Source of the DNA: Cantharellus purpuraceus | Taxonomy: Eukaryota > Basidiomycota > Agaricomycetes > Cantharellales > Hydnaceae | Reading direction: 5' to 3' | Assembly: GCA_025174535.1 (NCBI GenBank) | Contig: JALBUN010000045.1 | Location: forward strand, 3,100,001-3,164,000 | Length of the DNA: 64,000 nucleotides | Shown here: positions 20,213 through 50,718 of the stretch, in pieces | How positions within the stretch are numbered: the stretch's first letter is position 1 | Layout: each line of letters opens with the position of its first letter | Notes under the pieces: generated by a model | Databases searched by the model: none | Told to the model about the DNA's origin: nothing | Seen by the model: the letters and a program-made list of their open reading frames with translations, nothing else | Made by a program: the position numbers and the translations under genes

Positions 20213-22391
20213 TTAAAAGGCAATGCCTCTTAATCCCTCTCTGTCTAGCCGATTGACGTCGCGCTGACGTCGCGACCTTGGAGCAGCAGGTAGATTTGTT
20301 TGTTTTCCCCCTCGAGAACCCTGGCTACGCATTACAGTCGCCTGCGCCGAATTGACCACCGCCGCCCTAACGGTGACGCTAGAGTCGTCCGAGCTCGATG
20401 CAGAGAGCACCAAAGTTGATGAAGCCGAAGAGTCGTGGGGAATGACCGTGGAGATCGACGATGAGGTCGCCAGCCCGTTCCCAGAGATAGAGTAAGACGA
20501 CACGGACGAGAACGTAGAGGAGGGCGGGACAAAGCCGTGCGGAGAGCCTATAAGACCCGTTCGTCGTGTGTGCTCAGATCCTTCATGTCCACACGGGCCT
20601 CCAGCTTCCTCACCAACATCAGTATCTGCATATTCACTCTCAGACTCGATGGTGGGCGAGGCGCCCTCGATCACGATCACGGGACCTACACCGCCGGCCT
20701 GTCTCCGTTCCTTTGGACTCTCGCATCTGGTTGCTGGAGAAGATAGATAAGGAAGGACGGGTGTCTGTTCAGATCCGGGGCTCTGAAAAAGGCGTGGGGG
20801 TATTACAGGGCTTATGTCTGGAGGTCGCTTCTTGCACGCAAGCGCACGGGGAGAAGCAAGGCCACCATAGACAGACGTCGCAACTGACATACGTCCGTCT
20901 GGAACCGGACTGCGCTGCGAATCTTGAGGACGGGGACGTCGGTAGTGCCGGGTCCGAGGGTGTATGCGATTAGCCATTTCTGGTGAAAGAAGTCTAGGTG
21001 AACTGGGTGTTTGTGATTGTCTGTCTACATGTGTTGGTAACTGGTGTTTGACTTCCTGCCAACGATGCTCGTTCTGTCCTTGATCTTGAGAGTGAGCATG
21101 ATGACGAGATGATGAAGACTGAGTTGAAATTGCCATCGGATGTGAGATTGCGACCCCAGTACTTCCGAGCTGGGCCACTTGGGCGTCTCGGTGCGTGGCG
21201 ATTGGACGAGGGAGATTGATCAGCTGCGACGAAGGAGTTTGTGGGAGGTGAGGGGATACACGACTAGGCGCAGTGATAGATCCCACGCGGACAGGAGGAG
21301 GCGTTCCAAATGGATTATCGAAGTTCTGTAGAAGAGGAAAGAAATCAGCCAAGAAAACAGGTATTACGCGCAATAACTTACTGCCTTCGTCTCCGTATCC
21401 GCGCCCAGTCCTATATCACCTGCATTGACGTAGTGAATCATGGGCGGTGCTCCTGAGTTCATACTTGCACCTCGGTGTGCTCCAACGCCGGCTAATCCCG
21501 CAGTACTATGGATACTGGACGCATACATCGGCCTGAGGTGGTTTCTTCCGACTCTATCCTTTTCTGGGACTACGACAATATTGGTTATACCAAAGAACGA
21601 CGAAAATCGTGCACTCTTCCTCCCCTTGATGTTGGAAACGAGATCAACACAATCGGAATGGATTCTCTTCATTCCACGACCCCGCGCTTGCCGTGTCCTT
21701 CTCCACCTGAACGAAATGAGGAATCCTAGAATTGTGAGCGCTGGTACACCAGCGAGGACCCCAATCAAAGCGAAGCGTATCTTCGGCGCGGAGCTTGAGC
21801 TTGTTGTAGCGACGATCGAGGACGATGTGCTAGGTTGTGCAAACGCGGTGTTGGTGGAATCAACGGTAGTAGATTGTGGTAAGGAAGCAGGAACATGTTG
21901 TGGTTGAGAGGGCAAGCTTTTAGTATTGAAAGAAGAGCTGGGGGACTGATGCGATGACAAGGGCGCCGCCGGAAGAACCTCTGTAGACATTGGCTGGATG
22001 ACCGCTCTCGACAAGGGATTCGCACGTGGGATCGTCTGGTGGTGAACGAACTGCGGTGTGACAGACACAACGAGCGCAGGGGTTCGGTCTGACTGACTGG
22101 TGGCTTAACGGAGACAGTCAGTATACTAAACATGAGGCTGGGAGCACGCGTACATGTATCAAGAGACGACGAAAATGTGTAAGAATCAGATGTGGTACTG
22201 CCAGGCAAGGAAGCTACCACCGAAGTTGATAGAGGAGGGTGGACAACATCGTTGGGGCTATCTTCGACCAGCAAGTGCGTTAGGAAAAGTGTATATTTTT
22301 TTGATAATATGAACATACCACGAGCTGAGTCTATCACTGGGGACATTCCTGCTACTGAGCGAAGAAAGAGAAGAGGTGTAACAAAGTACAT
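20213..22391 (-). CDS. single-pass Ser/Thr/Pro-rich membrane protein, full-length copy (arm A)
   Basis: Four exons join: 22391-22319, 22261-22154, 22088-21382 and 21325-20213, giving 666 residues. It starts MYFVTPLLFLRSVAG, a likely signal peptide. The outer part (about residues 25-160) is Ser/Thr/Pro-rich and should be heavily O-glycosylated. One membrane helix (IRFALIGVLAGVPALTILGF, about residues 165-187) is followed by a basic stop-transfer RWRRTRQARGRGMKR. The long cytosolic tail is disordered, with Ser, Pro and Arg-rich stretches and an acidic patch (ESESEYADTDVGEE). This layout matches fungal wall-stress-sensor-like or Mid2-like proteins in shape only; I see no WSC domain. A truncated copy lies in arm B and a broken N-terminal copy at 35065-35570. 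This copy alone has the full C-terminus. Confidence 0.75.
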
Positions 22392-22590
22392 GTCGTGATA
22401 CAGAATTTGGAAAGGGTGTCATGCGCTTGCCTGGTGATGGCAATGAATGTAAAGGTAGCTAAGGAGCGTGGGTTAACGAGGGATGGCGTGGCTGACGAGC
22501 CTCCGACCAACGAGTGGGCAGTGGCTGAGCCTGGCATGGTCACGTGACTCGGGTCGACCGACATGCCTTCATGATTCTAATTTTTCCAGT

Positions 22591-22977
22591 CTATTCAGCG
22601 CCAGTGTTGAAGAACGTGAGAAGCCATATTGTGTGATACATATTTACAATTTCTGCTGCAGCAGACGTATCAAATGCGTGCTGAAGAGTCAGACACGAGG
22701 CCGACATGAGTTGAAAAATGCGGTCCACTTGCAGGTGAGCCCTCACATACCTCTCAGAGCCATGTCTGATCGACCGATGTTCATATGCTGCATATAGAAC
22801 CACAGTATAAGCGATGTCAATTTCGCCGGGCGGCACCCCATTAATTATCGTAGAGAACGGGGAGGGGGCAGGGGCAGTGCCCCCCCATATCATTGTGAAA
22901 TCGAAGTGAGCGAACGAAAAGAAGCTTAAGAGACACCTCATCGAGTCTAATAATACGTAGGGCGATCTCACAATCAC
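22591..22977 (-). CDS. conserved unknown 128-residue frame 'Y' (arm A)
   Basis: A 129-codon frame starting MIVRSPYVLLDSM, with mixed hydrophobic N-terminus (LLSFFSFAHFDFTMIW) and a middle with GVPPGEIDIAYTVVLYAA. It is kept open in arm B (48173-48559), while the third copy (34513-34866) has a premature stop in place of a Trp codon. It lies between the membrane protein gene and the X gene, on the strand of the former. I recognise no family. Its conservation may simply reflect the youth of the duplication, so it could also be a chance frame or a 5' exon of something else. Confidence 0.35.
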   Translation of the reverse strand: MIVRSPYVLLDSMRCLLSFFSFAHFDFTMIWGGTAPAPSPFSTIINGVPPGEIDIAYTVVLYAAYEHRSIRHGSERYVRAHLQVDRIFQLMSASCLTLQHAFDTSAAAEIVNMYHTIWLLTFFNTGAE

Positions 22978-22989
22978 TCTGCACGGCTG

Positions 22990-23450
22990 ACAACGCTCAT
23001 TATTCCCTTACTTTACCCGAAAGGGGCCAACTCCCCAAGGAATTTGCAACGCGGTGTCTTATGGTGGAGATTCCAAGTCCTTGGGATTCTCACCCCTCAA
23101 TGACTGTGAAATATGTATTGTGACAGCAGGGCAGAGTTCACACATTTGGGCACGACAGCAGCCCCAGTTCCGTGACGCCTCGCATCTTATCGTGAACAGG
23201 GATTGTGTCAAGTTTACACGGGAAGATATTGTTTCCCGCATGAGACAGCATGTATACCGCGTCCACGAGGTTGGGATGTGGACAATGTTCCCATAAGGTA
23301 AAGAGCAGAATTGCCAATTGATTCTCGCAGTTGTGGCTGCGCGAGAGCACACCCTTCGGTATGAGAGTCGGACGCGAGGGGGCGTATGCCGTTGCATACT
23401 TGTGCGAACATACTGGCGTTTACGGAGCCCTGGAATTTTCAGACTGGTAG
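22990..23450 (+). pseudogene. X-type gene, decayed copy X1 (arm A)
   Basis: A plus-strand reading of unknown family: from about 22996, GICNAVSYGGDSKSLGF ... FRDASHLIVNRDCVKFTRED ... HEVGMWTMFP, then after a stop LPIDSRSCGCARAHP, then in another frame AYAVAYLCEHTGVYGALEF ending at a stop at 23450. The same order of blocks occurs in the X2 gene at 26088-26765 (HVGVW, DLPIDYP, RPHPC, YAFAYLSQHIQDL), so the two are paralogues, and in X2 the last blocks are in one frame. X1 therefore carries frame breaks. It ends 400 bp upstream of a zinc-finger gene on the same strand. No start codon could be placed with confidence. Confidence 0.4.
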
Positions 23451-23770
23451 AGTTTCTTTGTCGTACCACCAGCCAAGTATATAATGGGACGGGCCGGGAT
23501 GAAAAGAAAACGATACTGAGAACAATGAATCTGATATCGCACGATTAGCATCCGACAAAGCGGTGACAGCGCAATCACAAGGTTTGTGTACACTGGGCGC
23601 CAAACACTAAAATCAAGAATTGGACTGTATCTACGCTGCGGTGATCATGTCCCCCCCATGTCCCTCGCCCCCTTGCGATGTCAGTTCCATTGTGAACTTT
23701 AGTTCTTGCTTCTTTCACGTGCAGTCAGCTGGACGGGCGTCCCCGTGAGTGGCTCCCTATTGTCTCCAGA

Positions 23771-23780
23771 GCATAAATTT
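23771..23780 (+). promoter_or_regulatory. TATA-like box of zinc-finger gene A
   Basis: GCATAAATTT lies 70 bp upstream of the ATG at 23850, inside a block (CTCCCTATTGTCTCCAGA before it, GGCCTGATCGTGGGG after it) that recurs upstream of the other zinc-finger copies, at 47370-47379, 33720, 30500, 30920 and 52316. The paralogous gene at 42469-43834 has CTGTATAATT at a similar distance. Role inferred from position and conservation. Confidence 0.45.
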
Positions 23781-23849
23781 GGCCTGATCGTGGGGTACCG
23801 TTCAACAATCTCACCCACTCCAACTGGCCTCATTTCACCACTTCACCCC

Positions 23850-25360
23850 ATGGCTCTCCAGTGGAATCACGATGGCCCATCCACGCTCCCCCCTCAGGCT
23901 TCTACGGGAGCCCACGCATTAAGCCCGCTTATTTACGAGGCGGGGTCGATATCAAGAGCATCTTCCTGCGGTTTGGGTGCTCTTGAAAATGTAGACTCGG
24001 AAGCTAAAGCGAGTGACGAGGAGAAAGAAGGAACCTGGGCATCGGAGGTACGCCGAAGCGTCGCCCTTGAGATGTTGCGTTGTTAATCGTGTTTACTACA
24101 GTATGCCAGGTTTTCTCCTGGAATCCCAGGATCGGACGAGTCCCTTATACGGGACTTGTTCTCATTTCAATACCGTGCGGAGACTGTTGTCTTACCTGAA
24201 GACCCCGTCTTTGGGAGGGCCTCAACTCCAGCATTGTATGCTACCCCGGCGTCGACCAGGGTTGGGACGCTGTCGTCCGTCTCACAGGTGAGCCCCTCCC
24301 GGCGGAAATGATGTTTATAGCTAACCTGGTCCTCTGAAGGACCGACGAAGCGACGGCCATGGGGACAAATCGTCCAGCTCCATGGCCTGCAAGCGCCGGA
24401 GGGAGGAAGAAGAAGAGTCGGTTCTCAGCTTCGTCTCTCCCAAGCGTCGGAGGGAGAATGAGGATGAGTTGGATGTTGAAAAGGCCCACGAGTCAGAGGC
24501 GGCGGGCCCGTCCAACTCTTGCGTCTTGCAGGTGAGCCCCTCCCGGCGGAAATGATGTTTGTAGCTAACCTCGCCCTTTAAAGGACCCACCAAGTGATGC
24601 CCCAGGGCACGAATTGCCCAGCTCCTTGCCCTGCAAGCGCAGGAGGGAAGAAGAGGATGAGTCGGGTCCTGAAAAGGCCGACGACTCAGAGGCAGGCCCC
24701 TCGACTCAGAAACGACTGAGGCATTCGCTTGGTTCGCACAAGTGCGATGAGGAGCGAACCCCATCCGGGGGGGGCCAAGGACATACTGCGGACGGCTCTT
24801 CCAAGTCAAGAATGAGCACACCCCCCTCCAAGTATGGTGGGAGAGAGACCGGGGCGGAGCTGCATTTGGAAGGGAGGAGTGTCAAGCAGGACGAAGCGTC
24901 AGAGGCGGGCCCATCGGGGCGGGCGACGCCGACGAGGACACCTCCCTCCAAATATGGCGGGAACGAGACCGGGGCGGAGCAGGAGCAGGAGCAGGTTCAG
25001 GCAGAAGGGAGCACCAAGCCGGACGAGGCGCCAGAGGCGGGCCCATCCAAGCGGGCGACGGGCACGAGCACCCCTCCCTCCAAATATGACGGGAGCGAGG
25101 GTGAGGGCGACGCCGATGGCGACAAGGAGTACCGCCAGCCCATCCGCCGACGTCGTGTCAAGACTACGGATGAGTCGTTGACGTGCTCGCAGTGCGGGAC
25201 GACGTTTGGGCGCCTCACCGACCTGGTTCGTCACCGGGAGACGGTGCACGAGAGGGACGATAGGAGGCCCAAATGGCAATGCCCTCGGTGCTCCTTGGTC
25301 GTTTCTCGCAAGGACGCTCTCACGCGACATATCAGATCGCGAGTTTGTAGGCGAAAATGA
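23850..25360 (+). CDS. C2H2 zinc-finger protein, copy A
   Basis: Four exons, all introns in phase 0: 23850-24047, 24102-24287, 24340-24531 and 24584-25360, giving 450 residues. The start is MALQWNHDGPSTLPP. Exons 3 and 4 both begin with a DRRSDGHGD/DPPSDAPGH-type block followed by a basic-acidic CKRRREEEEE motif, and the two 52-bp introns in front of them are almost identical, so they arose by duplication of an exon plus its intron. Residues about 280-380 hold a repeated TPPSKYGGxETGAE module. The C-terminus has a classical finger (CSQCGTTFGRLTDLVRHRE, C-x2-C-x12-H-x4-H) and a second of C2HC type (CPRCSLVVSRKDALTRHIRS then Cys), ending VCRRK. A DNA-binding nuclear protein is the natural reading. 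Target unknown. Preceded by X1. Confidence 0.85.
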
Positions 25361-26087
25361 TGGTTATCCTCGTCGGCGTCAACCGGATGGAATTAAAGTG
25401 CACCCTGCCAGTTCTGCTTCTGAGCTTACGCGAAGATGGTAGTTTTGAGAAGTGAGTTCTTGCATCATGCTTTATTGTTCTTGTCGCTGAGCAACTGGGA
25501 CGTATAGGTTGGTCAAAGTCAATTTCTCACGAAAGCAGTGTCGCGACCTGGTCAGCTGAGACGGGACCGGCGCAAGCTAAGATGACGTTGAAAACATCGC
25601 CCGCCTTTCGTTCTGTGGGATTGGAGCACATCCGTTGCTGTCCACGATCCAACCTTCGCGAATAACTTACATGGATGGTCATACCGGTTGGGGCTTTCTG
25701 GATGGTTGGGTAACCGCCGATACTGTGTGTCTCCTACGCCCCCGTACCTACGTGAATCAGATGAATCGGAGCGTTCTCCTGAGCCACGAACACAGCTGTT
25801 TTGTGATGTGAGTACATGCATAATGTTTCGTCGTTCTAGTCTAACTGATTGGCACGTACAGGTCGGTCAATAGACAGGAATCTTTTACGAATGCTACATC
25901 GCGACATCCTTGGTCTAGACATTACGGAATAGGGGCAGGGCCCGAAAGCGGTAGAAGCGTAGCTAGTATTTAGTTATAAATAGTTGGATGGAATTGGAAG
26001 ACATCCTTTGCAGACCTCGACACTCAACCTTCGCGAATAATGCCGAATCGCTAGCATAGTGCCCATAACCCCCTGATATTTGTAGCC
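25361..26087. other. 3' flank of zinc-finger gene with repeated intron-like blocks
   Basis: Downstream of the zinc-finger stop lies an intron-like block (GTGAGTTCTTGCATCATG ... CGTATAG, about 25451-25507) followed by a short segment. A diverged second copy of the same arrangement starts near 25808 (GTGAGTACATGCATAATG). This suggests a 3'-UTR intron and a partial second gene end. A short open stretch (CVSPTPPYLRESDESERSPE, 25727-25786) precedes the second donor. The 25610-25690 part reappears, diverged, at 50710-50769. No complete gene can be modelled. Confidence 0.35.
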
Positions 26088-26765
26088 ATGGTGCGAGAGA
26101 AAGAATGTGAAGTTGAATGCTTCGTGAAGCCATCCACCAGGAACCCCCTCCTTACAGGTATATATTATATACATAATTCTTACATAAGTCTGAAGTCTAA
26201 TATCACTATTGTCCCACCACGTTTTTTCCCTTCTCGTCTCTTCTCGTCTACTCTCACAGGTTGTCTACGCCTACCAGCTTGCATGGCTCAGGTGTTCCCG
26301 AACCAAAGCATCACGACGACTGTATTGTGACTTCAGTGGCCTTGCTATTCCACCAGGCTCCATATCCGTGAAGCTTGAAGCTTCTCACCTTACTATGAAC
26401 AGGTATCGTGGCGATCTTATACAGCAACAAAGTGTTGTTCATATGAAAAACAGTGTATGACCGTGTACGCCTCGCATGTTGGAGTATGGCAAACCGCAGA
26501 CTGGCCAATCAATTATCCTACTTTTTACTGTGAACAGGTATCGTGGCCATCTTATACAGCAATCAAATGTTGTTCATATGAACAATAGTGCATTACCGTG
26601 TCCACCTCGCATGTTGGAGTATGGCCAACCGTAGACTTGCCAATCGATTATCCTATTCATGGCTTCGTGAGACCACATCCTTGCATTCCACTTGGAACCT
26701 GCATATATGCCTTTGCATACTTATCGCAACATATTCAAGACCTTGCGAAGCTCAGGCTGTCCTGA
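26088..26765 (+). CDS. X-type gene X2 (arm A), model uncertain
   Basis: Unknown family. Exon 1 starts MVREKECEVECFVKPSTRN and ends at a donor at 26158. Further blocks can be read as VVYAYQLAWLSGLAIPPGSI...SHLTMN with an intron removed (about 26293-26335). Then comes a 135-bp tandem repeat (in-frame, 45 codons: VSWPSYTATKCCSYE ... VGVWPAADL), and a last stretch DLPIDYPIHGFVRPHPC ... YAFAYLSQHIQDLAKLRLS ending at 26765. One unit carries an in-frame stop, and exon phases do not all agree, so this may be a pseudogene. It is paralogous to X1, and like X1 sits about 400 bp upstream of a zinc-finger gene (here the truncated one at 27181). Confidence 0.4.
26401..26670 (+). repeat. 135-bp tandem repeat, two units
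   Basis: Units start with AGGTATCGTGG at 26401 and 26536. The period is exactly 135 bp, a multiple of three. Arm B holds three units of the same repeat (starts, on the minus strand, near 44749, 44614 and 44479). Confidence 0.9.
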
Positions 26766-27180
26766 AGTTTCCTGAAGTTTTCAGGTTCATGGAGTTGCCT
26801 TGCCATGCCGCCAGCCAAGTACAGCATGGGACGAGTCCACAGAAAAACGCAACAGTACATGAGAACGATGAACATTGATCTCGTACCATTAGAAGATGTG
26901 GCCGCCCAATCATAGCTTTCTGTGCTCTGGGCGCCAAACAGCAAACCTGAGAGTTGTTCGATCGACGCCGCGTTGATCACGACCTCTGAGCTGTCGCATG
27001 CTTTCGATGTCAGTGCCACTCTAAACTCACTCTTTGTTTTCTTGCACGTGTCAGCAGTGCGACTCGCGTTCCCGTGAGTAGGTCCTTATTCTCGCTGTAT
27101 AATTTGAACTTTATCGCCACCTTGAGGTAGAGTCCAACAACTATACCCAATCACAACACACTCTTTCACGACTGGTTCTC

Positions 27181-27513
27181 ATGGACTCCAAAAGTCAACT
27201 CAACGTATTCCCTATCCGATCATCAAAAGCCACTACAGCGCACAATGAACAGCCGTCCAACGGGCTTATTTTCGGGGTATCTTCAATAAGATCAACGTCT
27301 TTCAGTTTGGGGTGTACTTCCAAAGCTCTGGGGCCGGAGGATAGGTTGTATCATAATGGGAAGCATCCCATGCGGGATTCAGGGGTACGCCAAGGTGTTG
27401 TCGCCACTGAGACGCATTGTGTTGCTAATTGTGCTCGCAGCAGTGTATCAGACGTACTCGCGACTTCTCAGAAAACGACAGGCCCACTCTAGGCATCTTG
27501 TATCCTGCGTCTT
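27181..27513 (+). pseudogene. 5' fragment of second zinc-finger gene (truncated by arm A end)
   Basis: Same first exon (MDSKSQLNVFPIRSSK...) and start of second exon as the intact gene at 42469-43834, but the sequence switches to unrelated DNA after the codons corresponding to ILYPA. The zinc-finger exon is absent. This fragment marks the inner end of arm A. Confidence 0.85.
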
Positions 27514-27965
27514 CGGATGGCGCAGTATGCTGTCAAGTCTCTTGATTGCCGGAATGTTAGGATCAACTTCTAGCCTTTAGCAGGGCCCGAATGATAAAAG
27601 TTCACACGGTGAACCTACAGCGACATACTGTGTTCTCACGACGCCAAACAGATATGGTCACACACTATTAGGGCCTATATGGAACCAGCTTATGCTGAAA
27701 ACCCAGATTTTTGATGCTCCACCATAGTCTGTTGTTAATCTGACCTTAGCCCCAAGTGAAGCAACGGTTCAGGCCTGGACCGGCAGCTTGCCAGATGGCC
27801 GAATGCAAGCTGAACGGCATGACATCCCTTTGTAAGTACGACTTGCGATGGACAACCGTGGACAGTGTTCGTGAAGCCCTCCTGGCCACTCCTCCCAAAC
27901 CCGCCTCCCTGGTTTTCAGAATCTTCTGCTTTGTCCCGGAGCACCCTCATCGTTATGGTAGCTTC
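27506..27965 (+). repeat. direct repeat S, copy 1
   Basis: About 460 bp, similar to 35697-36130 in the same orientation; both start CTTCGGxxGGCGCAGTATGC and end CATCGTTTATGGTAGCTTCA-like. Copies differ by scattered substitutions and small indels, so they are older than arms A and B. It contains no recognisable gene (a frame reading SVREALLATP is present in both). It lies exactly between the end of arm A and the start of the RNA14 fragment. Its ends show no clear terminal repeats. Confidence 0.8.
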
Positions 27966-27972
27966 ACTTCTG

Positions 27973-29827
27973 AATGCGAGGCTGTTGGCCAGTTACAAAA
28001 AGACAGTAATACGCATGAGATTCAATCCAGAAACATGGTAAGCGATAAACCTCCTATAAGATTTGAACGGAACTAAACGAGCGAATCAAACAAGGTTCAT
28101 GGCTTATATGTGGACTGACAAACACACGAAGCCAGAGGAGGCCATGTCTTTACTCAAAGCTGGACTCGAGGCAAACCCAGCAAGGTGAGTCTCACAAAAT
28201 CTGCAACCGTCACCGTACAAACCCTTCGCGTTCTAGCTTTCTCCTTAACTTTGCGTATGCAGAGGCACAAGAAAATGCTAAAAACAACGGCGAGGTGCAT
28301 ACAATGTTTCACCAAATTTATCGACGTTCTACACAGCGAGATCGAGAAGGTTGAAAAGACGGTGACACCCGAAAATTCTTTCGCATCAAATGGCTCTATT
28401 GCCACACAGCCAACCGCTTCTTCCACCTCTTCAAGCTCAATATTACCACCTCAGAAGGAGCTGGAACGCCGTCGACAGAGCTTGGTATTGCTTGGATTGC
28501 GTACATGCGCTTCGCAAGGCGTGCGGAGGGTTTGAAGCCGGCAAGAACCGTGTTCGGAAAGGCGAGAAAGGACAAGTGGATTAGCTGGGAAATTTACGAA
28601 GCTGCTGGTATGAAGTCTCGTGACATTGTACAGCAATACCTGGCTTAACACTGTCCGCGCATACAGCTTCTATGGAATATCATTTTACCAAGGCAACTGA
28701 CGTTGCGACACGGATATACGAAACTGGATTGAAGCAGTTCGGGGAGGACGCAGAATATGTCATTCGTTATCTTAAATTCTTGATTTCAATCAACGACGAG
28801 AATAGTACGTTGCTCCTTCATTTACCAACAAATATTTTATTTATTGGGTACGATAGACGCGCGGGCTTTGTATGAATATAACTTTGGTGATCTCGGCGCA
28901 GCCGCCAAGCTTGAAAAGCGCATAGCTGAAGTGTATCCGGATGGTACGTCAGGTTTTTCTTCTTTTTATGCCATTTGTTTTATCCATCCACTTTGCGGCA
29001 GACCTTCCCATGCGACGCTTTGCACAACGGCACGTTTATTCCAATCACGACGCCATTGCCATTCGGGATCTTGGATGGATGCCTGCCGGAGCCTCGGGTT
29101 CCAGTAATGGTTCACTTAAGCATGATAATGGGCTTGGTATCACCAACTCAGCTTCGGCTAGCTCTCTTGGGCCAGTTGCTACTCAGAAGAGGCCTGCAGC
29201 GTCCCCAGACCGGGGAAGATCTGGAGTTGCCCGTTCAGTCTCGCAAGATTTGGGGCCACCACCGCCGAAAAGAGCAAGGGAGTTGTCGCCTGCCATTAGA
29301 GACAGGGATCGGGAGAGAATGGAGAGGGAAAGAGATCGGAGGGATATGCCTCCTCCCCCAAGGAGGAGATATGGTAGTCCTGATTGGGGAAGAGGTAGTC
29401 CGCCTAGGAGAGGAGGGGACGGACATCGAGATTGGGAAAGGGATGGTCCAGGGCATGACGACAGAGGAGCTTCTGTTATTCCTGGGCACACATCATTCTT
29501 CATGAACCAATTGCCCCCATCATCAACCTTTGACGGTAGGTCGAAAGCCATCATCAGGAAGGGTTATGTCTGACTGATAAATTTATGTTAGGCCCTGTTT
29601 TCAGAGTGGACGACCTTATGCAAGTATTTCGAAATGCTAGCATTCCTAATCAAGGAGGTCCCGCACGCCCACGATCTCCTCCACGGGGTGCGCTATCCCA
29701 AACCTAATGATTGAGACTCTTGCAGCTTCATTCACACACATCTCTTCCTTGTGTGTGCAGGTCGACCACCACCAGACTATGGTCCTTATAGGGCCCTGGC
29801 GGAGGGCGGGGCGGTAGAAGGTATTAA
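27973..29827 (+). pseudogene. partial RNA14 copy (3' part, damaged)
   Basis: Inverted copy of 52936-54852. It starts in the middle of an RNA14 exon (NARLL...), keeps the following exons and introns, and so arose by DNA duplication rather than by retrotransposition. It lacks 66 bp present in the parent near 28868, removing 22 residues ([19 protein letters not shown] and flanks) in frame. It also has a one-base loss in the last exon (TATAGGGCC against TATCAGGGCC) that shifts the C-terminal Gly/Arg-rich tail. The 5' half is missing, so no functional CstF-77 protein can be made. Confidence 0.9.
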
Positions 29828-29984
29828 AATATGTGCATACATCTTTTTATGCGCTGTACCGTTCCTCTGAGGTCTTCTTGTATGTCTACGACTATGATTT
29901 TATGGTCAGATCTTTTTGCATATGCACTTTATTCGTTCTGAGAGTAGCAAAACCAAAAGCGTTCATGCCTATGTCTAGTGCACT

Positions 29985-30175
29985 ATGTATACCATGTCCA
30001 CGAGGTTGAGATGTGGACAATGTTCCCATGGGGTAAACAGCAGAATTGCCAATTGATTCTCGCAGTTGTGGCTGCGCGAGAGCACACCCTTCGGTATGAG
30101 AGTCGGGCGTATGCCATTGCATACTTGTGCCAACATACTGGCGTTTACGGAGCCCTGGAATTTTCAGACTGGTAG
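29985..30175 (+). pseudogene. X1 remnant
   Basis: Carries only the end of the X1 sequence (HEVEMWTMFPWGKQ, then LPIDSRSCGCARAHP and YAIAYLCQHTGVYGALEFSDW). It follows the RNA14 fragment and matches 52556-52750 in inverted orientation. Confidence 0.6.
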
Positions 30176-30319
30176 AGTTGCTTTGTCGTACCACCAGCCA
30201 AGTATAAAATGGGCCGGGCCGGGATAAAAAGCAAACGATACTGAGAATAATGAATCTGATATCGCACGATTAGCATCCGACAAAGCGGTGACTGCTCAAT
30301 ATTCAATCACAACCTTTGT

Positions 30320-30960
30320 GTGCTCTGGGCGCCAAACACTAAAATCAAGAATTGCACTGTATCTACACGGTGATCATGTCCCCCCCCATGTCCCCGCTCC
30401 TTTCAGATGTCAGTTCCATTCTGAACGTCCTTCTTGCTTCTTTCACGTGTAGGCAGCTGGACGCGCGTCCCCGTGAGTGGCTCCCTATTGTCTCCAGAGC
30501 ATAAATTTAGCCTGATCGTGGGTACTGTGATTGAGCGCTCAATCACAACCTTTGTGATCTGGGCGCTAAACACTAAAATCAAGAATTGCACTGTATCTAC
30601 ACGGTGATCATGTCCCCCCACACGTACCTCGCTCCTTTCAAATGTCAGTTCTATTCTAAACTTCCTTCTTGCTTCTTTCACGTGTAGGCAGCTGGACGCG
30701 CGTCCCTGTGATTGAGCGCTTAATCGCAACCTTTGTGTCCTCTGGGCGCCAAACACCAAAATCAAGCATTGCACTGTATCCACACCGTGATCATGTCCCC
30801 CCCCATATCCCTCGCTCCTTTCAGATGTCAGTTCCATTATTAACCTTCCTTCTTGCTTCTTTCACGTGTAGGCAGCTGGACGCGCGTCCCTGTGAGTGGC
30901 TCCCTATTGCCTCCAGAGCATAAATTTGGCCTGATCGTGGGGTGCTGTTCAACAATATCA
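30320..30960 (+). repeat. tandemly repeated promoter block (three copies)
   Basis: The sequence around ATTGCACTGTATCTACAC occurs at 30351, 30585 and 30768, each followed by TTCTTTCACGTGTAGGCAGC and, in the first and third, by the TATA-like GCATAAATTT. Spacings are 234 and 183 bp. It is the region normally found once between X1 and a zinc-finger gene. Confidence 0.8.
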
Positions 30961-31004
30961 CCCACTAAAACTCCCCCCACATCACCATTTCACCACCGAA
31001 CCTC

Positions 31005-34495: not shown

Positions 34496-34512
34496 GTTGT
34501 CAGCCGTGCAGA

Positions 34513-39900: not shown

Positions 39901-42468
39901 GACGTACCATACTACCCGTCATTATCGTGCCCAACACCCTTCCGTGCTGCTGACCAGCAGCACCTTCACTTACAATCATTGGTCCTCGCGGAATGGTCGC
40001 CATTGATGCATCACCAGCATCAGTCCCAGCCGTTCCTTCGACCTAATATTGCCCTCAGACAACCGTATCCGCACTATGTCCTCAACCAGCAACCTGCAAA
40101 ACCATAACACAGTCAGATCAGACGATGATGTTCTTGCTCCAAGGAAACACCAAGTCCCTACCTTCCCATGCGATCCTTGAGGAGCATAAAATACCATCTC
40201 TTACGGCTTCCAGAGTCATACGCAGTCTTCGCCCTATATGCATGTGTTGCAAATGAGAAACGAAGACACACTTTGCCAGAGTGCACATAAAAACGCACCG
40301 TCTTACCAATTCAGCAACCCCATGTTTGCCATCCGGCCATCGTATATTTCGTGCCTTTACCCCACAGAGCGGACTGGTTGCACGATTCCATCCCCCGAAG
40401 CCACCTCCAACCCAATTGTCCTCGAACGGGCATACGATATCTGCAAGTAGTGTTTCCTGGAAGCTGTTAGAGACTTACAATCGGAAATGCACAGTGAATC
40501 TTTGTTCCACGGACCTAACCTTTCTCTGAATGCCTTGGCTCAACAACTACACGACTTTCTGTCCCGAGTGGATTCTACAAGTCTCCAAGTGAATTGTTAT
40601 TCTATCATAATTGATGCCAGAGGCTTACATTGAGCAGGCTATCCCCAGACCGGACTCTTTCCCCACAACCGGATTTCTCCCAAGTATCTTCACTCGGAAT
40701 AGGTGCCGAGTTGACTGCTCAGAAGAAGCCTGTCATGTTGACAACGCTATCCCAAGTTTGCCGGCAGACACCCCTCAAGAAGGAGCACGAGCTCAAGACA
40801 ACAAGGACAAGAGAGTCATAGACCGTAAAGCCCGCAAAGTGTCGTCTCGAGTCTATGCCGGCTCATCACGTCAGACCGGCCACAGCAACATGACACCCGC
40901 TAAAGCACGATGACGCAGAGTTGGTGCATATACCCAGCGACACACTGCAGCAACTTTAGAGGAAGATAACAATCTCGCCTCAAAACGTGCGGTGAACGAG
41001 AGGAAGACGAGAGGCTAGGGGGGACACACTATTGGCATGGCGCTACTCTTGCACGTAACGATTCAGGAAGACATCGACCCTCATCGAGAAGATGCATTCA
41101 TGTCCTTGGGACCCTGCAATTCAAAAAATGTACGCATGTATGTGTTATCTCCACATAACCCCGAGCCGAGCGTTGGAAGCTGACCACGATGCCACGAGTG
41201 CGCAGGTTTAGCCTCTGGTGTCGGGTTATCCAAGTGCTATGCTGAAGAGACGATATGGTTCTCTCTCGTGGAGGTTACCTTATCGTCGCTGGTGCAAGGC
41301 ATGCAAGATGTGAGGTTAACGTTTCACTTGCATGTGAGCCGCTCGGTCGGTAAGGACCGTTCGTTCTACTGCGCTGTGCTAAACGCTCATTTCATAGCAT
41401 TATAATATTATTGCATCCGTTTTTCCCTGGTCCCTTGAGACATGTTTTCGTGTTTATACTTATGACACATGTCAGTTTATGTAATACTGTGGAATGGTCG
41501 CACGGCACACACTCAGCCCCAAAAGACATTTAATACATGAAGAAGAAAATGCATCTTGCACTCGTTTTGTTTTTTCCTGATGAATTGTTTTATCGTGCAG
41601 ACAGTATTAACCCGGTGCAGTAGGTACGTCACGTGCCCCAATGGAACGCGCAGTACAAGCGAAGCAAATATTATTACATTATGTTCAAGATTTTCTAGCT
41701 ATAGCCCTTCCTTCTGTCCCACACATCTCCTTCGCCCCACTTCGATATTCCAGTGGCACAGCAGAGAGTAAGGGATTCATTTATTTCCCTTACCACCCTC
41801 GCCCCACACCCGCTTCCGTATTAAATTCTGCCCATTTAGTTTTGCAGTTGAACTGGTGTTGTTTCCCTTCCCACCACACTCTTTCTTCATATAGACCTCG
41901 TATGTAGATACAGTGCCATAAGCGCCCATTTCCCCGAGCATTTACAGTAATGAATTGTTCTCTCCCTTAAATATTGTTAACAGAGCGTGCCGGCATAACC
42001 TGCTGTCTATCACAATGTTTTCTCTACTAAATCCTCTTAGCACGGGCACCCCAACATGTAACAAAAGAGACTGAAGAAATTTTATGAACACTCTTAGGTT
42101 TATGTTTTTAGTCTCATACTACATTTTCATTTGATATATGTCGATATATACGTGAAGGTAGGGTCGTGAGCACCAAGAGAGGCGCGCCAATTCCACCCAA
42201 CTAAACACCGTCTATTACCCAACTCTGCCTCGACTGTGTCGCAGCTCAGAATTTGGGTAAAGCTGGTATCCATTGACAGACCTATACGTACCGATATACT
42301 TACAGACGAGAGCAACGAGCACTACGCAAGTAGTCACTTCTCAAACACACTCCAATCCCATCCGATTAGACCCGGACCTGCAGTAGGTACAGGCAATCCT
42401 CGTTATTATCGGTTAAGCAACCAATTCAAGAAATCCGATTAATATATAATCAGCATTTTTACTTTCTT
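39901..42468. other. gene-poor stretch, possible gene fragments
   Basis: Coding-like plus-strand pieces occur at 39883-40107 (QQHLHLQSLVLAEWSPLMHH), 40460-40625 (LEAVRDLQSEMHSESLFHGP) and 40660-40830 (LSPQPDFSQVSSLGIGAELT). They are in different frames and not clearly separated by introns, so a decayed gene is possible. A further frame at 41641-41907 starts MERAVQAKQILLHYVQDF. From about 42270 the sequence resembles the 3' flank of the zinc-finger genes. Confidence 0.3.
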
Positions 42469-43834
42469 TTACTTTCTCTTCCTGCAAACTCGCGACCTGA
42501 TATGCCGAGCGAGAGCATCCTTGCGGGAAACGACCAAGGAGCACAACCAACACTGCCATACTTGGCCACTGGGATCCCCGTGAATCGACCTGACGTGACG
42601 TTTTAGGTCAGGGAGACGGCCCAAGATTTGCCCGCATTGCGAGCATGGGAACTTGCCATCCGGAGAGCCGTTGTTTTTCACGGGGCGTCGGCGGATGGAA
42701 GGCGCGCAGTAGTTACTGTCCTTCTCGTCGTCGACTTCCACATCGCTCTCGCTCCCGCCATATCCGGAGGGAAGGGTGCTCTTTATAGCCCTCGTGCGCG
42801 TTATCCGCCTTGATGGGCCTGCCTCTGGAACACCGTCTGACTTATAGGAGGCATCCGGACTCTCGCTCCTACGCGCTTCCGTCATCGCCCGAAGCCTACG
42901 AGGTCTCGACACAGGAGAGAAGAGACCCGGTTCTTGGGAAGGATCCTTCTGAACGAGGCTTGAATCTAAAGCATCGGGTTCCTCTGTGCTTTGTTGACCC
43001 GTATAGTCGTCGTGCTCCCCACCGCACTCATGTTCTGTGCTTTGTTTATCTGTGCTTTGTTGACCCGTATAGTCGTCGTGCTGGTCACCACACTCGTTCT
43101 CTGTGCTTTGTTGACTCGTATAGTCGTCGTGCTCGCTACCAGACTCGTATGAGCCAGATGAAAGTCTCCTTGTGTGTTTCAGGCTATACGAGGCCGCCTC
43201 CGAATAATCATCCATTTCAGGACTTTCAATCCTGGACATCTCCACTTCCTCCATTTGCAGCATCGGTCCTCTCAAGCCGGTCGAGTTGTTGACACCTGGC
43301 CCATTCCCGAGAACCCTTGTGGCGTGCTTCAAAACCGAAGATAAGCTATGGATATTTATTTCGGCTTAGAAAAGCTCACTTGTGGGAAGACATGTAGCGT
43401 CGAAGCACTAGTCGACGCCGAGGCAAACTGTAACGGTGGCGGTGGCGTTTGTTCAAGGACCGAGTCATCTTCGATGGACCCAATGGAATCGGTATCTGAG
43501 AAAGACGCAGGATACAAGATGCCTAGAGTGGGCCTGTCGTTTTCTGAGAAGTCGCGAGTACGTCTGATACACTGCTGCGAGCACAATTAGCAACACAATG
43601 CGTCTCAGTGGCGACAACACCTTGGCGTACCCCTGAATCCCGCATGGGATGCTTCCCATTATGATACGACCTATCTTCCGACCCCAGAGCTTTGGAAGCA
43701 CACCCCAAACTGAAAGACGTTGATCTTATTGAAGATACCCCGAAAATAAGCCCGTTGGACGGCTGTTCATTGTGCGCTGTAGTGGCTTTTGATGATCGGA
43801 TAGGGAATACGTTGAGTTGACTTTTGGAGTCCAT
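42469..43834 (-). CDS. C2H2 zinc-finger protein, paralogue F (intact)
   Basis: Three exons with phase-0 introns: 43834-43739, 43574-43380 and 43326-42469, giving about 382 residues. The start is MDSKSQLNVFPIRSSK. The first donor (GTATCT) is chosen because it keeps the frame; one further downstream would not. Residues about 145-200 contain an acidic repeat (HDDYTGQQSTE, three copies). Near 290 comes the PSGYGGSESDVEVDDEKDSN module shared with copy E. The C-terminus has a classical finger (CSQCGQILGRLPDLKRHVRS) and a second C2HC finger (CWLCSLVVSRKDALARHIRS), ending VCRKRK. Probably nuclear and DNA-binding. The promoter block resembles that of copies A and B, and an X2 gene lies upstream on the same strand. 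The first two exons belong to arm B; the finger exon lies outside it. Confidence 0.8.
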
Positions 43835-43910
43835 GAGAACCAGTCGTGAAAGAGTGTGTTGTGATTGGGTATAGTTGTTGGACTCTACCTCACGGTGGCG
43901 ATAAAGTTCA

Positions 43911-43920
43911 AATTATACAG
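43911..43920 (-). promoter_or_regulatory. TATA-like box of paralogue F
   Basis: Minus-strand CTGTATAATT about 80 bp upstream of the ATG at 43834, in a block with TCCTTATTCTCG before and ACTTTATCG after it. The position and flanks match the TATA-like box of copy A. A copy is found at 27100 in arm A. Confidence 0.4.
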
Positions 43921-44249
43921 CGAGAATAAGGACCTACTCACGGGAACGCGAGTCGCACTGCTGACACGTGCAAGAAAACAAAGAGTGAGTTTAGAGTGGC
44001 ACTGACATCGAAAGCATGCGACAGCTCAGAGGTCGTGATCAACGCGGCGTCGATCGAACAACTCTCAGGTTTGCTGTTTGGCGCCCAGAGCACAGAAAGC
44101 TATGATTGGGCGGCCACAACTTCTAATGGTACGAGATCAATTTTCATCGTTCTCATGTACTGTTGCGTTTTTCTGTGGACTCGTCCCATGCTGTACTTGG
44201 CTGGCGGCATGGCAAGGCAACTCCATGAACCTGAAAACTTCAGGAAACT

Positions 44250-45062
44250 TCAGGACAGCCTGAGCTTCGCAAGGTCTTGAATATGTTGCGATAAGTATGC
44301 AAAGGCATATATGCAGGTTCCAAGTGGAATGCAAGGATGTGGTCTCACGAAGCCATGAGCAGGATAATCGATTGGCAAGTCTACGGTTGGCCATACTCCA
44401 ACATGCGAGGTGGACACGGTAATGCACTATTTTTCATATGAACAACATTTGATTGCTGTATAAGATGGCCACGATACCTTTTCACAGTAAAACGTAGGAA
44501 ATTTGATTGACAAGTCTGCGGCTGGCCATACTCCAACATGCGAGGCGTACACGGTAATACGCTGTTTTTCATATGAACAACACTTTGTTGCTGTATAAGA
44601 TGGCCACGATACCTGTTCACAGTAAAGAGTAGGATAATTGATTGACAAGTCTGCGGCTGGCCATACTCCAACATGCGAGGCGTACACGGTCATACACTGT
44701 TTTTCATATGAACAACACTTTGTTGCTGTATAAGTTCGCCACGATACCTCTTCACAGTAAGGTGAGAAGCTTCAAGCTTCACGGATGTGGAGCCTGGTGG
44801 AATAGCAAGGCCACTGAAGTCACAATACAGTCGTCGTGATGCTTTGGTTCGGGAACACCTGAGCCATGCAAGCAGGTAGACGTAGACAACCTGTGAGAGT
44901 AGAAGAGAAGAGACGAGAGGGGAAAAAACGTGGTGGGACAATAGTTATATCAGACTTCAGACTTATGTAAGAATTATGTATATAATATATACCTGGAAGG
45001 AGGGGGTTCCTGGTGGATGGCTTCACGAAGCATTCAACTTCACATTCTTTCTCTCGCACCAT
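44250..45062 (-). CDS. X-type gene X2 (arm B), model uncertain
   Basis: Same as 26088-26765 but with three 135-bp units instead of two, and with an open frame through two of them (VGVWPAADLSINYPT, VGVWPAADLSIKFPT). The first exon starts MVREKECEVECFVKPSTRN. The last stretch again reads YAFAYLSQHIQDL. It lies upstream of paralogue F on the same strand. Exon joins remain unresolved, and one of the copies may be dead. Confidence 0.4.
44345..44749 (-). repeat. 135-bp tandem repeat, three units
   Basis: Minus-strand AGGTATCGTGG starts near 44749, 44614 and 44479, exactly 135 bp apart. Arm A has two units at the matching place. Confidence 0.9.
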
Positions 45063-45789
45063 GGCTACAAATATCAGGGGGTTATGGGCACTATGCTAGC
45101 GATTCGGCATTATTCGCGAAGGTTGAGTGTCGAGGTCTGCAAAGGATGTCTTCCAATTCCATCCAACTATTTATAACTAAATACTAGCTACGCTTCTACC
45201 GCTTTCGGGCCCTGCCCCTATTCCGTAATGTCTAGACCAAGGATGTCGCGATGTAGCATTCGTAAAATATTCCTGTCTATTGACCGACCTGTACGTGCCA
45301 ATCAGTTAGACTAGAACGACGAAACATTATGCATGTACTCACATCACAAAACAGCTGTGTTCGTGGCTCAGGAGAACGCTCCGATTCATCTGATTCACGT
45401 AGGTACGGGGGCGTAGGAGACACACAGTATCGGCGGTTACCCAACCATCCAGAAAGTCCCAACCGGTATGATCATCCATGTAAGTTATTCGCGAAGGTCG
45501 GATCGTGGACAGCAACGGATGTGCTCCAATCCCCCAGAACGAAAGGCGGGCGATGCTCCCAACGTCATCTTAGCTTGCGCCGGTCCCGTCTCAGCTAACC
45601 AGGTCGCGACACTGCTTTCGTGAGAAATTGACTTTGACCAACCTATACGTCCCAGTTGCTCAGCGACAAGAACAATAAAGCATGATGCAGGGACTCACTT
45701 CTCAAAACTACCATGCTCGTGTAAGCTCAGAAGCAGAACTGGCAGGGTGCACTTTAATTCCATCCGGTTGACGCCGACGAGGATAACCA
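45063..45789. other. 3' flank of zinc-finger gene B
   Basis: Inverted counterpart of 25361-26087, with the same intron-like blocks and no complete gene. Confidence 0.35.
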
Positions 45790-47300
45790 TCATTTTCGCC
45801 TACAAACTCGCGATCTGATATGTCGCGTGAGAGCGTCCTTGCGAGAAACGACCAAGGAGCACCGAGGGCATTGCCATTTGGGCCTCCTATCGTCCCTCTC
45901 GTGCACCGTCTCCCGGTGACGAACCAGGTCGGTGAGGCGCCCAAACGTCGTCCCGCACTGCGAGCACGTCAACGACTCATCCGTAGTCTTGACACGACGT
46001 CGGCGGATGGGCTGGCGGTACTCCTTGTCGCCATCGGCGTTGCCCTCACCCTCGCTCCCGTCATATTTGGAGGGAGGGGTGCTCGTGCCCGTCGCCCGCT
46101 TGGATGGGCCCGCCTCTGGCGCCTCGTCCGGCTTGGTGCTCCCTTCTGCCTGAACCTGCTCCTGCTCCTGCTCCGCCCCGGTCTCGTTCCCGCCACATCC
46201 GGAGGGAGGTGTCCTCGTCGGCGTCGCCTGCCCCGATGGGCCCGCCTCTAACGCCTCGTCCTGCTTGACACTCCTCCCTTCCAAATGCAGCTCCGCCCCG
46301 GTCTCTCTCCCACCATACTTGGAGGGGGGTGTGCTCATTCTTGACTTGGAAGAGCCGTCCGCAGTATGTCCTTGGCCCCCCCCGGATGGGGTTCGCTCCT
46401 CATCGCACTTGTGCGAACCAAGCGAATGCCTCAGTCGTTTCTGAGTCGAGGGGCCTGCCTCTGAGTCGTCGGCCTTTTCAGGACCCGACTCATCCTCTTC
46501 TTCCCTCCTGCGCTTGCAGGGCAAGGAGCTGGGCAATTCGTGCCCTGGGGCATCACTTGGTGGGTCCTTTAAAGGGCGAGGTTAGCTACAAACATCATTT
46601 CCGCCGGGAGGGGCTCACCTGCAAGACGCAAGAGTTGGACGGGCCCGCCGCCTCTGACTCGTGGGCCTTTTCAACATCCAACTCATCCTCATTCTCCCTC
46701 CGACGCTTGGGAGAGACGAAGCTGAGAACCGACTCTTCTTCTTCCTCCCTCCGGCGCTTGCAGGCCATGGAGCTGGACGATTTGTCCCCATGGCCGTCGC
46801 TTCGTCGGTCCTTCAGAGGACCAGGTTAGCTATAAACATCATTTCCGCCGGGAGGGGCTCACCTGTGAGACGGACGACAGCGTCCCAACCCTGGTCGACG
46901 CCGGGGTAGCATACAATGCTGGAGTTGAGGCCCTCCCAAAGACGGGGTCTTCAGGTAAGACAACAGTCTCCGCACGGTATTGAAATGAGAACAAGTCCCG
47001 TATAAGGGACTCGTCCGATCCTGGGATTCCAGGAGAAAACCTGGCATACTGTAGTAAACACGATTAACAACGCAACATCTCAAGGGCGACGCTTCGGCGT
47101 ACCTCCGATGCCCAGGTTCCTTCTTTCTCCTCGTCACTCGCTTTAGCTTCCGAGTCTACATTTTCAAGAGCACCCAAACCGCAGGAAGATGCTCTTGATA
47201 TCGACCCCGCCTCGTAAATAAGCGGGCTTAATGCGTGGGCTCCCGTAGAAGCCTGAGGGGGGAGCGTGGATGGGCCATCGTGATTCCACTGGAGAGCCAT
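45790..47300 (-). CDS. C2H2 zinc-finger protein, copy B
   Basis: Exact counterpart of copy A: exons 47300-47103, 47048-46863, 46810-46619 and 46566-45790, 450 residues, all introns in phase 0. Differences from copy A are a handful of substitutions: EALEAG for EASEAG, SGQATP for SGRATP, PPSGCGGNE for PPSKYGGNE, and GNADGD for GDADGD. Both fingers are intact. Promoter and upstream X1 are also duplicated. Both copies could be expressed. Confidence 0.85.
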
Positions 47301-47369
47301 GGGGTGAAGTGGTGAAATGAGGCCAGTTGGAGTGGGTGAGATTGTTGAACGGTACCCCACGATCAGGCC

Positions 47370-47379
47370 AAATTTATGC
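47370..47379 (-). promoter_or_regulatory. TATA-like box of zinc-finger gene B
   Basis: Counterpart of the box at 23771-23780, 70 bp upstream of the ATG at 47300, with identical flanks. Confidence 0.45.
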
Positions 47380-47699
47380 TCTGGAGACAATAGGGAGCCA
47401 CTCACGGGGACGCCCGTCCAGCTGACTACACGTGAAAGAAGCAAGAACTAAAGTTCACAATGGAACTGACATCGCAAGGGGGCGAGGGACATGGGGGGGA
47501 CATGATCACCGCAGCGTAGATACAGTCCAATTCTTGATTTTAGTGTTTGGCGCCCAGTGTACACAAACCTTGTGATTGCGCTGTCACCGCTTTGTCGGAT
47601 GCTAATCGTGCGATATCAGATTCATTGTTCTCAGTATCGTTTTCTTTTCATCCCGGCCCGTCCCATTATATACTTGGCTGGTGGTACGACAAAGAAACT

Positions 47700-48160
47700 C
47701 TACCAGTCTGAAAATTCCAGGGCTCCGTAAACGCCAGTATGTTCGCACAAGTATGCAACGGCATACGCCCCCTCGCGTCCGACTCTCATACCGAAGGGTG
47801 TGCTCTCGCGCAGCCACAACTGCGAGAATCAATTGGCAATTCTGCTCTTTACCTTATGGGAACATTGTCCACATCCCAACCTCGTGGACGCGGTATACAT
47901 GCTGTCTCATGCGGGAAACAATATCTTCCCGTGTAAACTTGACACAATCCCTGTTCACGATAAGATGCGAGGCGTCACGGAACTGGGGCTGCTGTCGTGC
48001 CCAAATGTGTGAACTCTGCCCTGCTGTCACAATACATATTTCACAGTCATTGAGGGGTGAGAATCCCAAGGACTTGGAATCTCCACCATAAGACACCGCG
48101 TTGCAAATTCCTTGGGGAGTTGGCCCCTTTCGGGTAAAGTAAGGGAATAATGAGCGTTGT
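47700..48160 (-). pseudogene. X-type gene, decayed copy X1 (arm B)
   Basis: Counterpart of 22990-23450, with the same stop after HEVGMWTMFP and the same later frame break. The breaks therefore predate the duplication, or the unit is not read as protein in this way. Confidence 0.4.
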
Positions 48161-48172
48161 CAGCCGTGCAGA

Positions 48173-48559
48173 GTGATTGTGAGATCGCCCTACGTATTAT
48201 TAGACTCGATGAGGTGTCTCTTAAGCTTCTTTTCGTTCGCTCACTTCGATTTCACAATGATATGGGGGGGCACTGCCCCTGCCCCCTCCCCGTTGTCTAC
48301 AATAATTAATGGGGTGCCGCCCGGCGAAATTGACATCGCTTATACTGTGGTTCTATATGCAGCATATGAACATCGGTCAATCAGACATGGCTCTGAGAGG
48401 TATGTGAGGGCTCACCTGCAAGTGGACCGCATTTTTCAACTCGTGTCGGCCTCGTGTCTGACTCTTCAGCACGCATTTGATACGTCTGCTGCAGCAGAAA
48501 TTGTAAATATGTATCACACAATATGGCTTCTCACGTTCTTCAGCACTGGCGCTGAATAG
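48173..48559 (+). CDS. conserved unknown 128-residue frame 'Y' (arm B)
   Basis: Counterpart of 22977-22591 with four or so residue differences (SPLSTI, LVSASC, FFSTGAE). Still fully open. Function unknown. Confidence 0.35.
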   Translation: MIVRSPYVLLDSMRCLLSFFSFAHFDFTMIWGGTAPAPSPLSTIINGVPPGEIDIAYTVVLYAAYEHRSIRHGSERYVRAHLQVDRIFQLVSASCLTLQHAFDTSAAAEIVNMYHTIWLLTFFSTGAE

Positions 48560-48758
48560 ACTGGAAAAATTAGAACCATGAAGGCATGTCGGTCGACCCG
48601 AGTCACGTGACCATGCCAGGCTCAGCCACTGCCCACTCGTTGGTCGGAGGCTCGTCAGCCACGCCATCCCTCGTTAACCCACGCTCCTTAGCTACCTTTA
48701 CATTCATTGCCATCACCAGGCAAGCGCATGACACCCTTTCCAAATTCTGTATCACGAC

Positions 48759-50718
48759 ATGTACTTTGTTACACCTCTTCTCTTTCTTCGCTCAGTAGCA
48801 GGAATGTCCCCAGTGATAGACTCAGCTCGTGGTATGTTCATATTATCAGAAAAATATACACTTTTCCTAACGCACTTGCTGGTCGAAGATAGCCCCAACG
48901 ATGTTGTCCACCCTCCTCTATCAACTTCGGTGGTAGCTTCCTTGCCTGGCAGTACCACATCTGGTTCTTACACAGTTTCGTCGTCTCTTGATACATGTAC
49001 GCGTGCTCCCAGCCTCATGTTTAGTATGCTGACTGTCTCCGTTAAGCCACCAGTCAGTCAGACCGAATCCCTGCGCTCGTTGTGTCTGTCACACCGCAGT
49101 TCGTTCACCACCAGACGATCCCACATGCGAATCCCTTGTCGAGAGCGGTCATCCAGCCAATGTCTACAGAGGTTCTTCCGGCGGCGCCCTTGTCATCGCA
49201 TCAGTCCCCCAGCTCTTCCTTCAATACTAAAAGCTTGCCCTCTCAACCACAACATGTTCCTGCTTCCTTACCACAATCTACTACCGTTGATTCCACCAAC
49301 ACCGCGTTTGCACAACCTAGCACATCGTCCTCGATCGTCGCTACAACAAGCTCAAGCTCCGCGCCGAAGATACGCTTCGCTTTGATTGGGGTCCTCGCTG
49401 GTGTACCAGCGCTCACAATTCTGGGATTCGTCGTTTCGTTCAGGTGGAGAAGGACACGGCAAGCGCGGGGTCGTGGAATGAAGAGAATCCATTCCGATTG
49501 TGTTGATCTCGTTTCCAACATCAAGGGGAGGAAGAGTGCACGATTTTCGTCGTTCTTTGGTATAAACAATATTGTCGTAGTCCCAGAAAAGGATAGAGTC
49601 GGAAGAAACCACCTCAGGCCGATGTATGCGTCCAGTATCCATAGTACTGCGGGGTTAGCCGGCGTTGGAGCACACCGAGGTGCAAGTATGAACTCAGGAG
49701 CACCGCCCATGATTCACTACGTCAATGCAGGTGATATAGGACTGGGCGCGGATACGGAGACGAAGGCAGTAAGTTATTGCGCGTAATACCTGTTTTCTTG
49801 GCTGATTTCTTTCCTCTTCTACAGAACTTCGATAATCCATTTGGAACGCCTCCTCCTGTCCGCGTGGGATCTATCACTGCGCCTAGTCGTGTATCCCCTC
49901 ACCTCCCACAAACTCCTTCGCCGCAGCTGATCAATCTCCCTCGTCCAACCGCCACGCACCGAGACGTTCAAGTGGCCCAGCTCGGAAGTACTGGGGTCGC
50001 AATCTCACATCCGATGGCAATTTCAACTCAGTCTTCATCATCTCGTCATCATGCTCACTCTCAAGATCAAGGACAGAACGAGCATCGTTGGCAGGAAGTC
50101 AAACACCAGTTACCAACACATGTAGACAGACAATCACAAACACCCAGTTCACCTAGACTTCTTTCACCAGAAATGGCTAATCGCATACACCCTCGGACCC
50201 GGCACTACCGACGTCCCCGTCCTCAAGATTCGCAGCGCAGTCCGGTTCCAGACGGACGTATGTCAGTTGCGACGTCTGTCTATGGTGGCCTTGCTTCTCC
50301 CCGTGCGCTTGCGTGCAAGAAGCGACCTCCAGACATAAGCCCTGTAATACCCCCACGCCTTTTTCAGAGCCCCGGATCTGAACAGACACCCGTCCTTCCT
50401 TATCTATCTTCTCCAGCAACCAGATGCGAGAGTCCAAAGGAACGGAGACAGGCCGGCGGTGTAGGTCCCGTGATCGTGATCGAGGGCGCCTCGCCCACCA
50501 TCGAGTCTGAGAGTGAATATGCAGATACTGATGTTGGTGAGGAAGCTGGAGGCCCGTGTGGACATGAAGGATCTGAGCACACACGACGAACGGGTCTTAT
50601 AGGCTCTCCGCACGGCTTTGTTCCGCCCTCCTCTACGTTCTCGTCCGTGTCGTCTTACTCTATTTCTGGGAACGGGCTGGCGACCTCATCGTCGATCTCC
50701 ACGGTCGAACCGGTATGA
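48759..50718 (+). CDS. single-pass Ser/Thr/Pro-rich membrane protein, C-terminally truncated copy (arm B)
   Basis: Exons 48759-48831, 48889-48996, 49062-49768 and 49825-50718 give about 593 residues. Signal peptide, outer region and membrane helix (LTILGFVVSF variant) are intact. The last exon follows the arm A copy up to SSSISTV and then crosses the arm boundary; three new codons (EPV) and a stop follow, replacing the last 76 or so residues (the basic tail rich in RSRRQRD). The protein should still be membrane-inserted but lacks the tail end. Its 3' end lies against the palindrome at 50738, so polyadenylation may also have changed. Confidence 0.65.

Follow-up and report, generated by a model that had tools for sequence, protein, structure and literature searches.

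The DNA analysed here covers positions 3100001–3164000 of contig JALBUN010000045.1 (C45; 3,519,665 bases) of Cantharellus purpuraceus, taken from the one assembly examined (40,153,731 bases in 50 contigs); this whole stretch of 64,000 nt is referred to below as the window. It carries a cluster of zinc-finger genes in which two nested, interleaved pairs of inverted repeats, X/X′ and Y/Y′, are found in the present order L-X-Y′-M′-X′-Y-R, where L and R denote the left and right flanks and M′ the middle part (spacer). The repeats, and the genes that they contain or cut, are as follows.

20444–27513, plus strand: arm X, which comprises most of the membrane gene, zinc-finger gene 1 with the promoter common to both, two units of a 135-bp tandem repeat and the start of zinc-finger gene 2
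43502–50706, minus strand: arm X′, an inverted copy of X in which the 135-bp repeat has 3 units
27970–30366 (at least), plus strand: Y′, in which the 3′ half of an RNA14-like gene is repeated in reverse together with the flank downstream of it
52397–54856, minus strand: Y, the counterpart of Y′, located at the end of a complete RNA14/suppressor-of-forked-like gene
20213–22541, minus strand: gene of a single-pass membrane protein, complete, with its stop at 20213
23850–25360, plus strand: zinc-finger gene 1 of the C2H2 type, open in X as well as in X′; inspection gives four exons and a product of 450 aa
42469–43833, minus strand: zinc-finger gene 2, which extends out of X′ into the spacer; its fingers lie in the open reading frame 42469–43365
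50707–50718, plus strand: X′|Y junction, at which the last 76 codons of the copied membrane gene are replaced by E-P-V-stop

In a self-comparison of the window (E ≤ 1e-10), with its own flanks serving as control, the arms matched over 6212 nt at 99% (20444–26655 with 44495–50706) and over 1124 nt at 98% (26390–27513 with 43502–44625); as the BLAST E value was 0, this likeness is not a matter of chance. Global alignment of X with X′ revealed 72 substitutions in 7070 aligned sites (1.02%; 53 transitions and 19 transversions) and a single gap of 135 nt, corresponding to one unit of the tandem repeat (2 copies in X, 3 in X′). Because X′ holds this extra unit, the sum of paired positions shifts from 71150 to 71015. 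The original prediction, made from the letters alone, had proposed near-identical inverted arms with few substitutions and hence a recent event or gene conversion between them; BLAST and the global alignment reproduced the arms at exactly the coordinates given there, and the arm identity computed here supports their recent origin. The arms are also truncated at opposite ends, as had been described, X inside zinc-finger gene 2 and X′ inside the membrane gene. The accompanying claim, that neither arm could have arisen just by copying its partner, is resolved here: each arm would be where a different gene originally lay, the membrane gene in X and zinc-finger gene 2 on the X′ side, which is what an inverted spacer with both breakpoints duplicated leads one to expect. 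The proposed inverted duplication with a spacer stands for the arms, but the second inverted pair, Y/Y′, interleaved with them, had been missed.

The distribution of whole and cut genes is complementary: the membrane gene is whole in X, zinc-finger gene 2 reaches its fingers on the X′ side only, and RNA14 extends past 54856, to 56229, in Y only, its copy in Y′ being cut at the position matching 54856, with 66 bp missing. Thirty open frames were scanned against Pfam (E ≤ 0.01), and a Suf domain was detected in the RNA14 frames 54181–54759 (E 3e-24) and 55645–56229 (E 6e-6); the best solved relative of the RNA14-like product is the cleavage stimulation factor 77 kDa. For the membrane protein four database homologues were found; the two that carry a species name come from Gautieria morchelliformis and Ramaria rubella. 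Gautieria belongs to the order Gomphales (Basidiomycota), and so does Ramaria. The tail of the protein is kept in X and in 4/4 homologues, three of which end in GIAF as X does and the fourth in GATC. Since whole genes mark the ancestral side, L-X, M′-X′ and Y-R can be regarded as old joins, and X|filler|Y′ and X′|Y as new ones.

The two pairs have diverged to a similar extent. In genic sequence, 18/2098 sites differ between the X/X′ copies of the membrane gene and 15/1601 between the Y/Y′ copies of the RNA14 body (Fisher p 0.86), and in noncoding sequence the counts are 36/1821 for the arm intergenic regions and 11/403 for the region downstream of RNA14 (p 0.34, realigned). These values are consistent with both duplications being of the same age.

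Features of the junctions, the spacer and the arms' interior that bear on the origin of this structure are listed below.

27514–27969, plus strand: filler at the X/Y′ junction, made of ~150 bp of local sequence and a truncated miniature inverted-repeat transposable element (MITE); 87% identical to 35695–36150
35841–36270, plus strand: longer MITE copy (right end tentative) next to 150 bp also present in the filler
32021–35566, minus strand: older copy, also inverted, with part of the membrane gene, the promoter region common to both genes and zinc-finger gene 1 (with stops)
50738–50802, no strand: perfect palindrome with 32-nt arms and a distance of 32 bp to the X′|Y joint; DNA fold z −12.6
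33343–33504, no strand: palindrome with 77-nt arms (94%) within the older copy; DNA fold z −22.4
22856–24894, no strand: homogenised arm tract, one difference in 2039 bp

The 16-kb spacer is thus not wholly unique, as it holds Y′ and the older partial inverted copy of the arm; degenerate repeats with 58–77% identity (38389–39723) were seen inside its otherwise unique part. In the searches made, the ~150 bp of the filler were found at just two places, the filler itself and 35695–35840. The MITE portion (27664–27969) is cut at the Y′ joint and belongs to a family of roughly 400–450 bp with inverted ends and many dispersed copies in the genome, counts being lower bounds. Insertion of a MITE at the joint was considered as a source of the filler and rejected, since the right end is cut and the 150 bp of flank shared with 35695–35840 are carried along. 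At the X|filler junction, TCTT is common to the arm and the filler's relative, and at the filler|Y′ and X′|Y junctions at most 1–2 bp of homology are evident. Six close inverted repeats were detected across the window, and the two palindromes listed are the strongest of them; such foldback structures fit repair-based models, though one of them lies away from the new joints.

Beyond Y′, the sequence continues to about 31650–31893 as a mosaic, relic form of zinc-finger gene 3. One patch (31177–31244) has 0/68 differences from X and 11/68 from Y, and another (31493–31558) has 2/65 from Y and 13/66 from X, and we read this part as a copy of gene 3 overwritten patchwise by gene 1; alternatively, it may have a separate, older origin. 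The promoter of the relic contains a 183-bp tandem duplication (30525–30895). Zinc-finger gene 3 itself has an internal direct duplication (50813–51378, 90%), its second finger seemingly missing. A 511-bp, 100% copy of 52497–51987, comprising the promoter and start of this gene, is present on another contig (C23:3635850–3636360) in AT-rich surroundings beside a retrotransposon fragment, and is very recent. A zinc-finger gene fragment with 81% identity to 24664–25203 was also seen on contig C34, at about 105700–106226.

Differences between X and X′ are not scattered evenly but clustered. The longest span with ≤1 difference measures 2040 bp (0/20000 permutations as extreme), and the longest difference-free gap 1173 bp (p 0.0001). 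X and X′ differ at 1/614 sites in 23236–23849 and 0/1045 in 23850–24894, whereas X differs from the older copy at 37/608 and 52/992 sites, respectively (5–6%); constraint therefore does not account for the identity of the arms. Polishing of near-identical repeats could mimic such a tract. In 22636–23235, X and the older copy differ at only 2/600 sites, vs. 2.5% leftward and 5–6% rightward, and this segment is likely an older conversion tract. For the 34 arm differences in 21886–25720, the older-copy letter is available in 26; it is that of X in 14 cases, that of X′ in 11 and neither in 1, as expected if the older copy split off before X and X′. Taken together, the homogenised 2-kb tract supports gene conversion between the inverted arms, as the original prediction had suggested.

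The order L-X-Y′-M′-X′-Y-R is the one-step product of an inversion with duplicated breakpoints. We consider it probable that the locus arose by a real and recent inversion of ~23 kb (27970–50706), and that one and the same event gave each break region a second copy in reverse orientation. In the ancestor, the left flank would have been followed by the membrane gene, zinc-finger genes 1 and 2, the spacer, zinc-finger gene 3, RNA14 and finally the right flank. Staggered breaks in two pairs, or sister chromatids joining unequally, would have left copies of 7 kb of one break region and at least 2.4 kb of the other at the far ends of the inverted piece; the joining would have used hardly any homology, or none, and left the ~460-bp filler. 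Afterwards, neighbouring zinc-finger units and both arms would have exchanged sequence by gene conversion. When the spacer is turned back, the older copy (32021–35566) comes to lie in direct orientation with X, and tandem duplicates usually lie in this orientation.

Several observations weigh against this inversion. The Y′/Y match is clean to about 29984–29985, mosaic to about 31650 and gone beyond; in the zinc-finger promoter part of the pair 18/371 sites differ, followed by 0–35% by patch, and the predicted Y′-M′ boundary corresponding to 50707 is not preserved. We propose that the mismatched outer part of Y′ results from conversion and subsequent loss. The filler is merely 87% like its one full-length relative, so that its source is unexplained, and the comparison included no relative's genome with the ancestral order. 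A first alignment of the RNA14 downstream region gave 17/408 differences (p 0.018), which would speak for unequal ages; six of these sit in a misaligned CA/TG repeat and vanish once it is gapped, giving the 11/403 stated above.

The same final order is also yielded by replication template switching, in which a reversed X, together with the filler, could have been inserted where Y was partly duplicated in tandem (L-X-M-Y*-filler-X′-Y-R), with crossing-over between X and X′ later flipping the spacer. This course would account for a templated filler and for the foldback palindromes near the joints, and the copy of 52497–51987 on C23 shows that pieces of the locus were recently copied elsewhere; it requires, however, two events, and no recent template of the filler was found in the searches made, so that we hold it to be possible but unlikely. 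Several independent inverted duplications in a foldback-prone zinc-finger cluster, with no single inversion, would agree with the presence of other, older inverted copies (32021–35566) and of two strong palindromes, yet the matching divergence of the two pairs and the complementary whole and cut genes would then be coincidences, which makes this explanation quite improbable.

An assembly artefact, with two haplotypes or mis-joined reads brought into one contig, had been named in the original prediction as the main alternative. The structure is known from the assembly alone, and the difference-free tract might be an effect of polishing. Against this, the left flank 14000–20443 and the right flank 54857–58700 are single-copy in the assembly apart from the arm and RNA14 ends, no listed self-match touches 1–20443 or 54857–64000 in the window self-comparison, and the spacer core 36261–42577 had no other match among the candidates scored (40/70); in these regions the searches thus give no sign of a second haplotype. 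Moreover, 72 sites and one repeat unit set the arms apart, four different sequences lie beyond their ends, and the observed structure is asymmetric, unlike the symmetric one that a simple join of inverted haplotypes gives. Such an artefact is made very unlikely by the single-copy flanks and the four different sequences. The flanks also carry an arginase-family gene (15615–16358) and a gene of the SNO family of pyridoxal phosphate synthesis (60177–60971), both identified with Pfam.

Regarding the genes shared by the arms, the membrane gene and zinc-finger gene 1 diverge from a common promoter region of 1.3 kb. Between X and X′, zinc-finger gene 1 shows 1 synonymous and 6 non-synonymous changes, and the membrane gene 2 and 4 in its last exon and 2 and 3 in its transmembrane exon; these counts are too small to infer selection. 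An exon-based search for zinc-finger homologues gave none among 785 candidates, and two bat ZNF263 matches to the spliced 450-aa protein (15% coverage, E ~6e-4 to 8e-4, from 7987 candidates sharing most words) were set aside as generic finger matches. A mating-type reading of the locus was dropped, because for the arm genes scanned (Pfam, E ≤ 0.01) neither a mating-type receptor nor a homeodomain or transposase was reported. An Alphavirus glycoprotein J hit (E 0.0056, below the cut-off) on a serine/threonine-rich frame was judged to be a low-complexity chance match.

Arms of this kind could act as a switch, with crossing-over between X and X′ repeatedly flipping the spacer and nuclei of one mycelium carrying different isomers, an idea that we regard as doubtful. 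If true, basidiomycetes would have, in an inversion whose breakpoints were duplicated, their own version of the yeast flip/flop region. The isomers would then differ in the junction-bearing copies that they hold of the membrane-protein/zinc-finger gene pair, whose common promoter conversion would keep alike. With the preferred inversion, the locus represents a small, young fungal case in which joints, filler, foldback palindromes and later conversion are preserved in one contig, and it could separate one-step (staggered break) from two-step (template switch, flip) models.

So read, the locus belongs to an already known kind, the inversion with duplicated breakpoints, as in Drosophila. Work on Drosophila inversions describes inverted duplications at the ends, two staggered-break (isochromatid/chromatid) models and a repair-based alternative, microhomology-mediated break-induced replication (PMC7584159). 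Joints with short or no homology and non-B DNA near them are shared with these cases; what differs is the ~23-kb inverted piece with a 7-kb duplication, the fungal host and the zinc-finger cluster with conversion. In yeast, foldback inverted duplications after double-strand breaks start from short, naturally occurring inverted repeats and form dicentric chromosomes (PMC10622511); they have foldback palindromes in common with the locus, the arms here lying far apart. Human polymorphic inversions are mediated by inverted repeats of 1.6–24 kb (PMC3961182), and the sizes of arm and spacer found here fall within this recurrently flipping range, though in one assembly rather than in a population. 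A related fungal setting is the Saccharomyces flip/flop region of 24 kb with inverted repeats of about 4 kb, seen in both orientations in strains and species (PMC9731477): both are fungal spacers of like size between gene-bearing, homogenised inverted repeats, but here one orientation is known, from one assembly.
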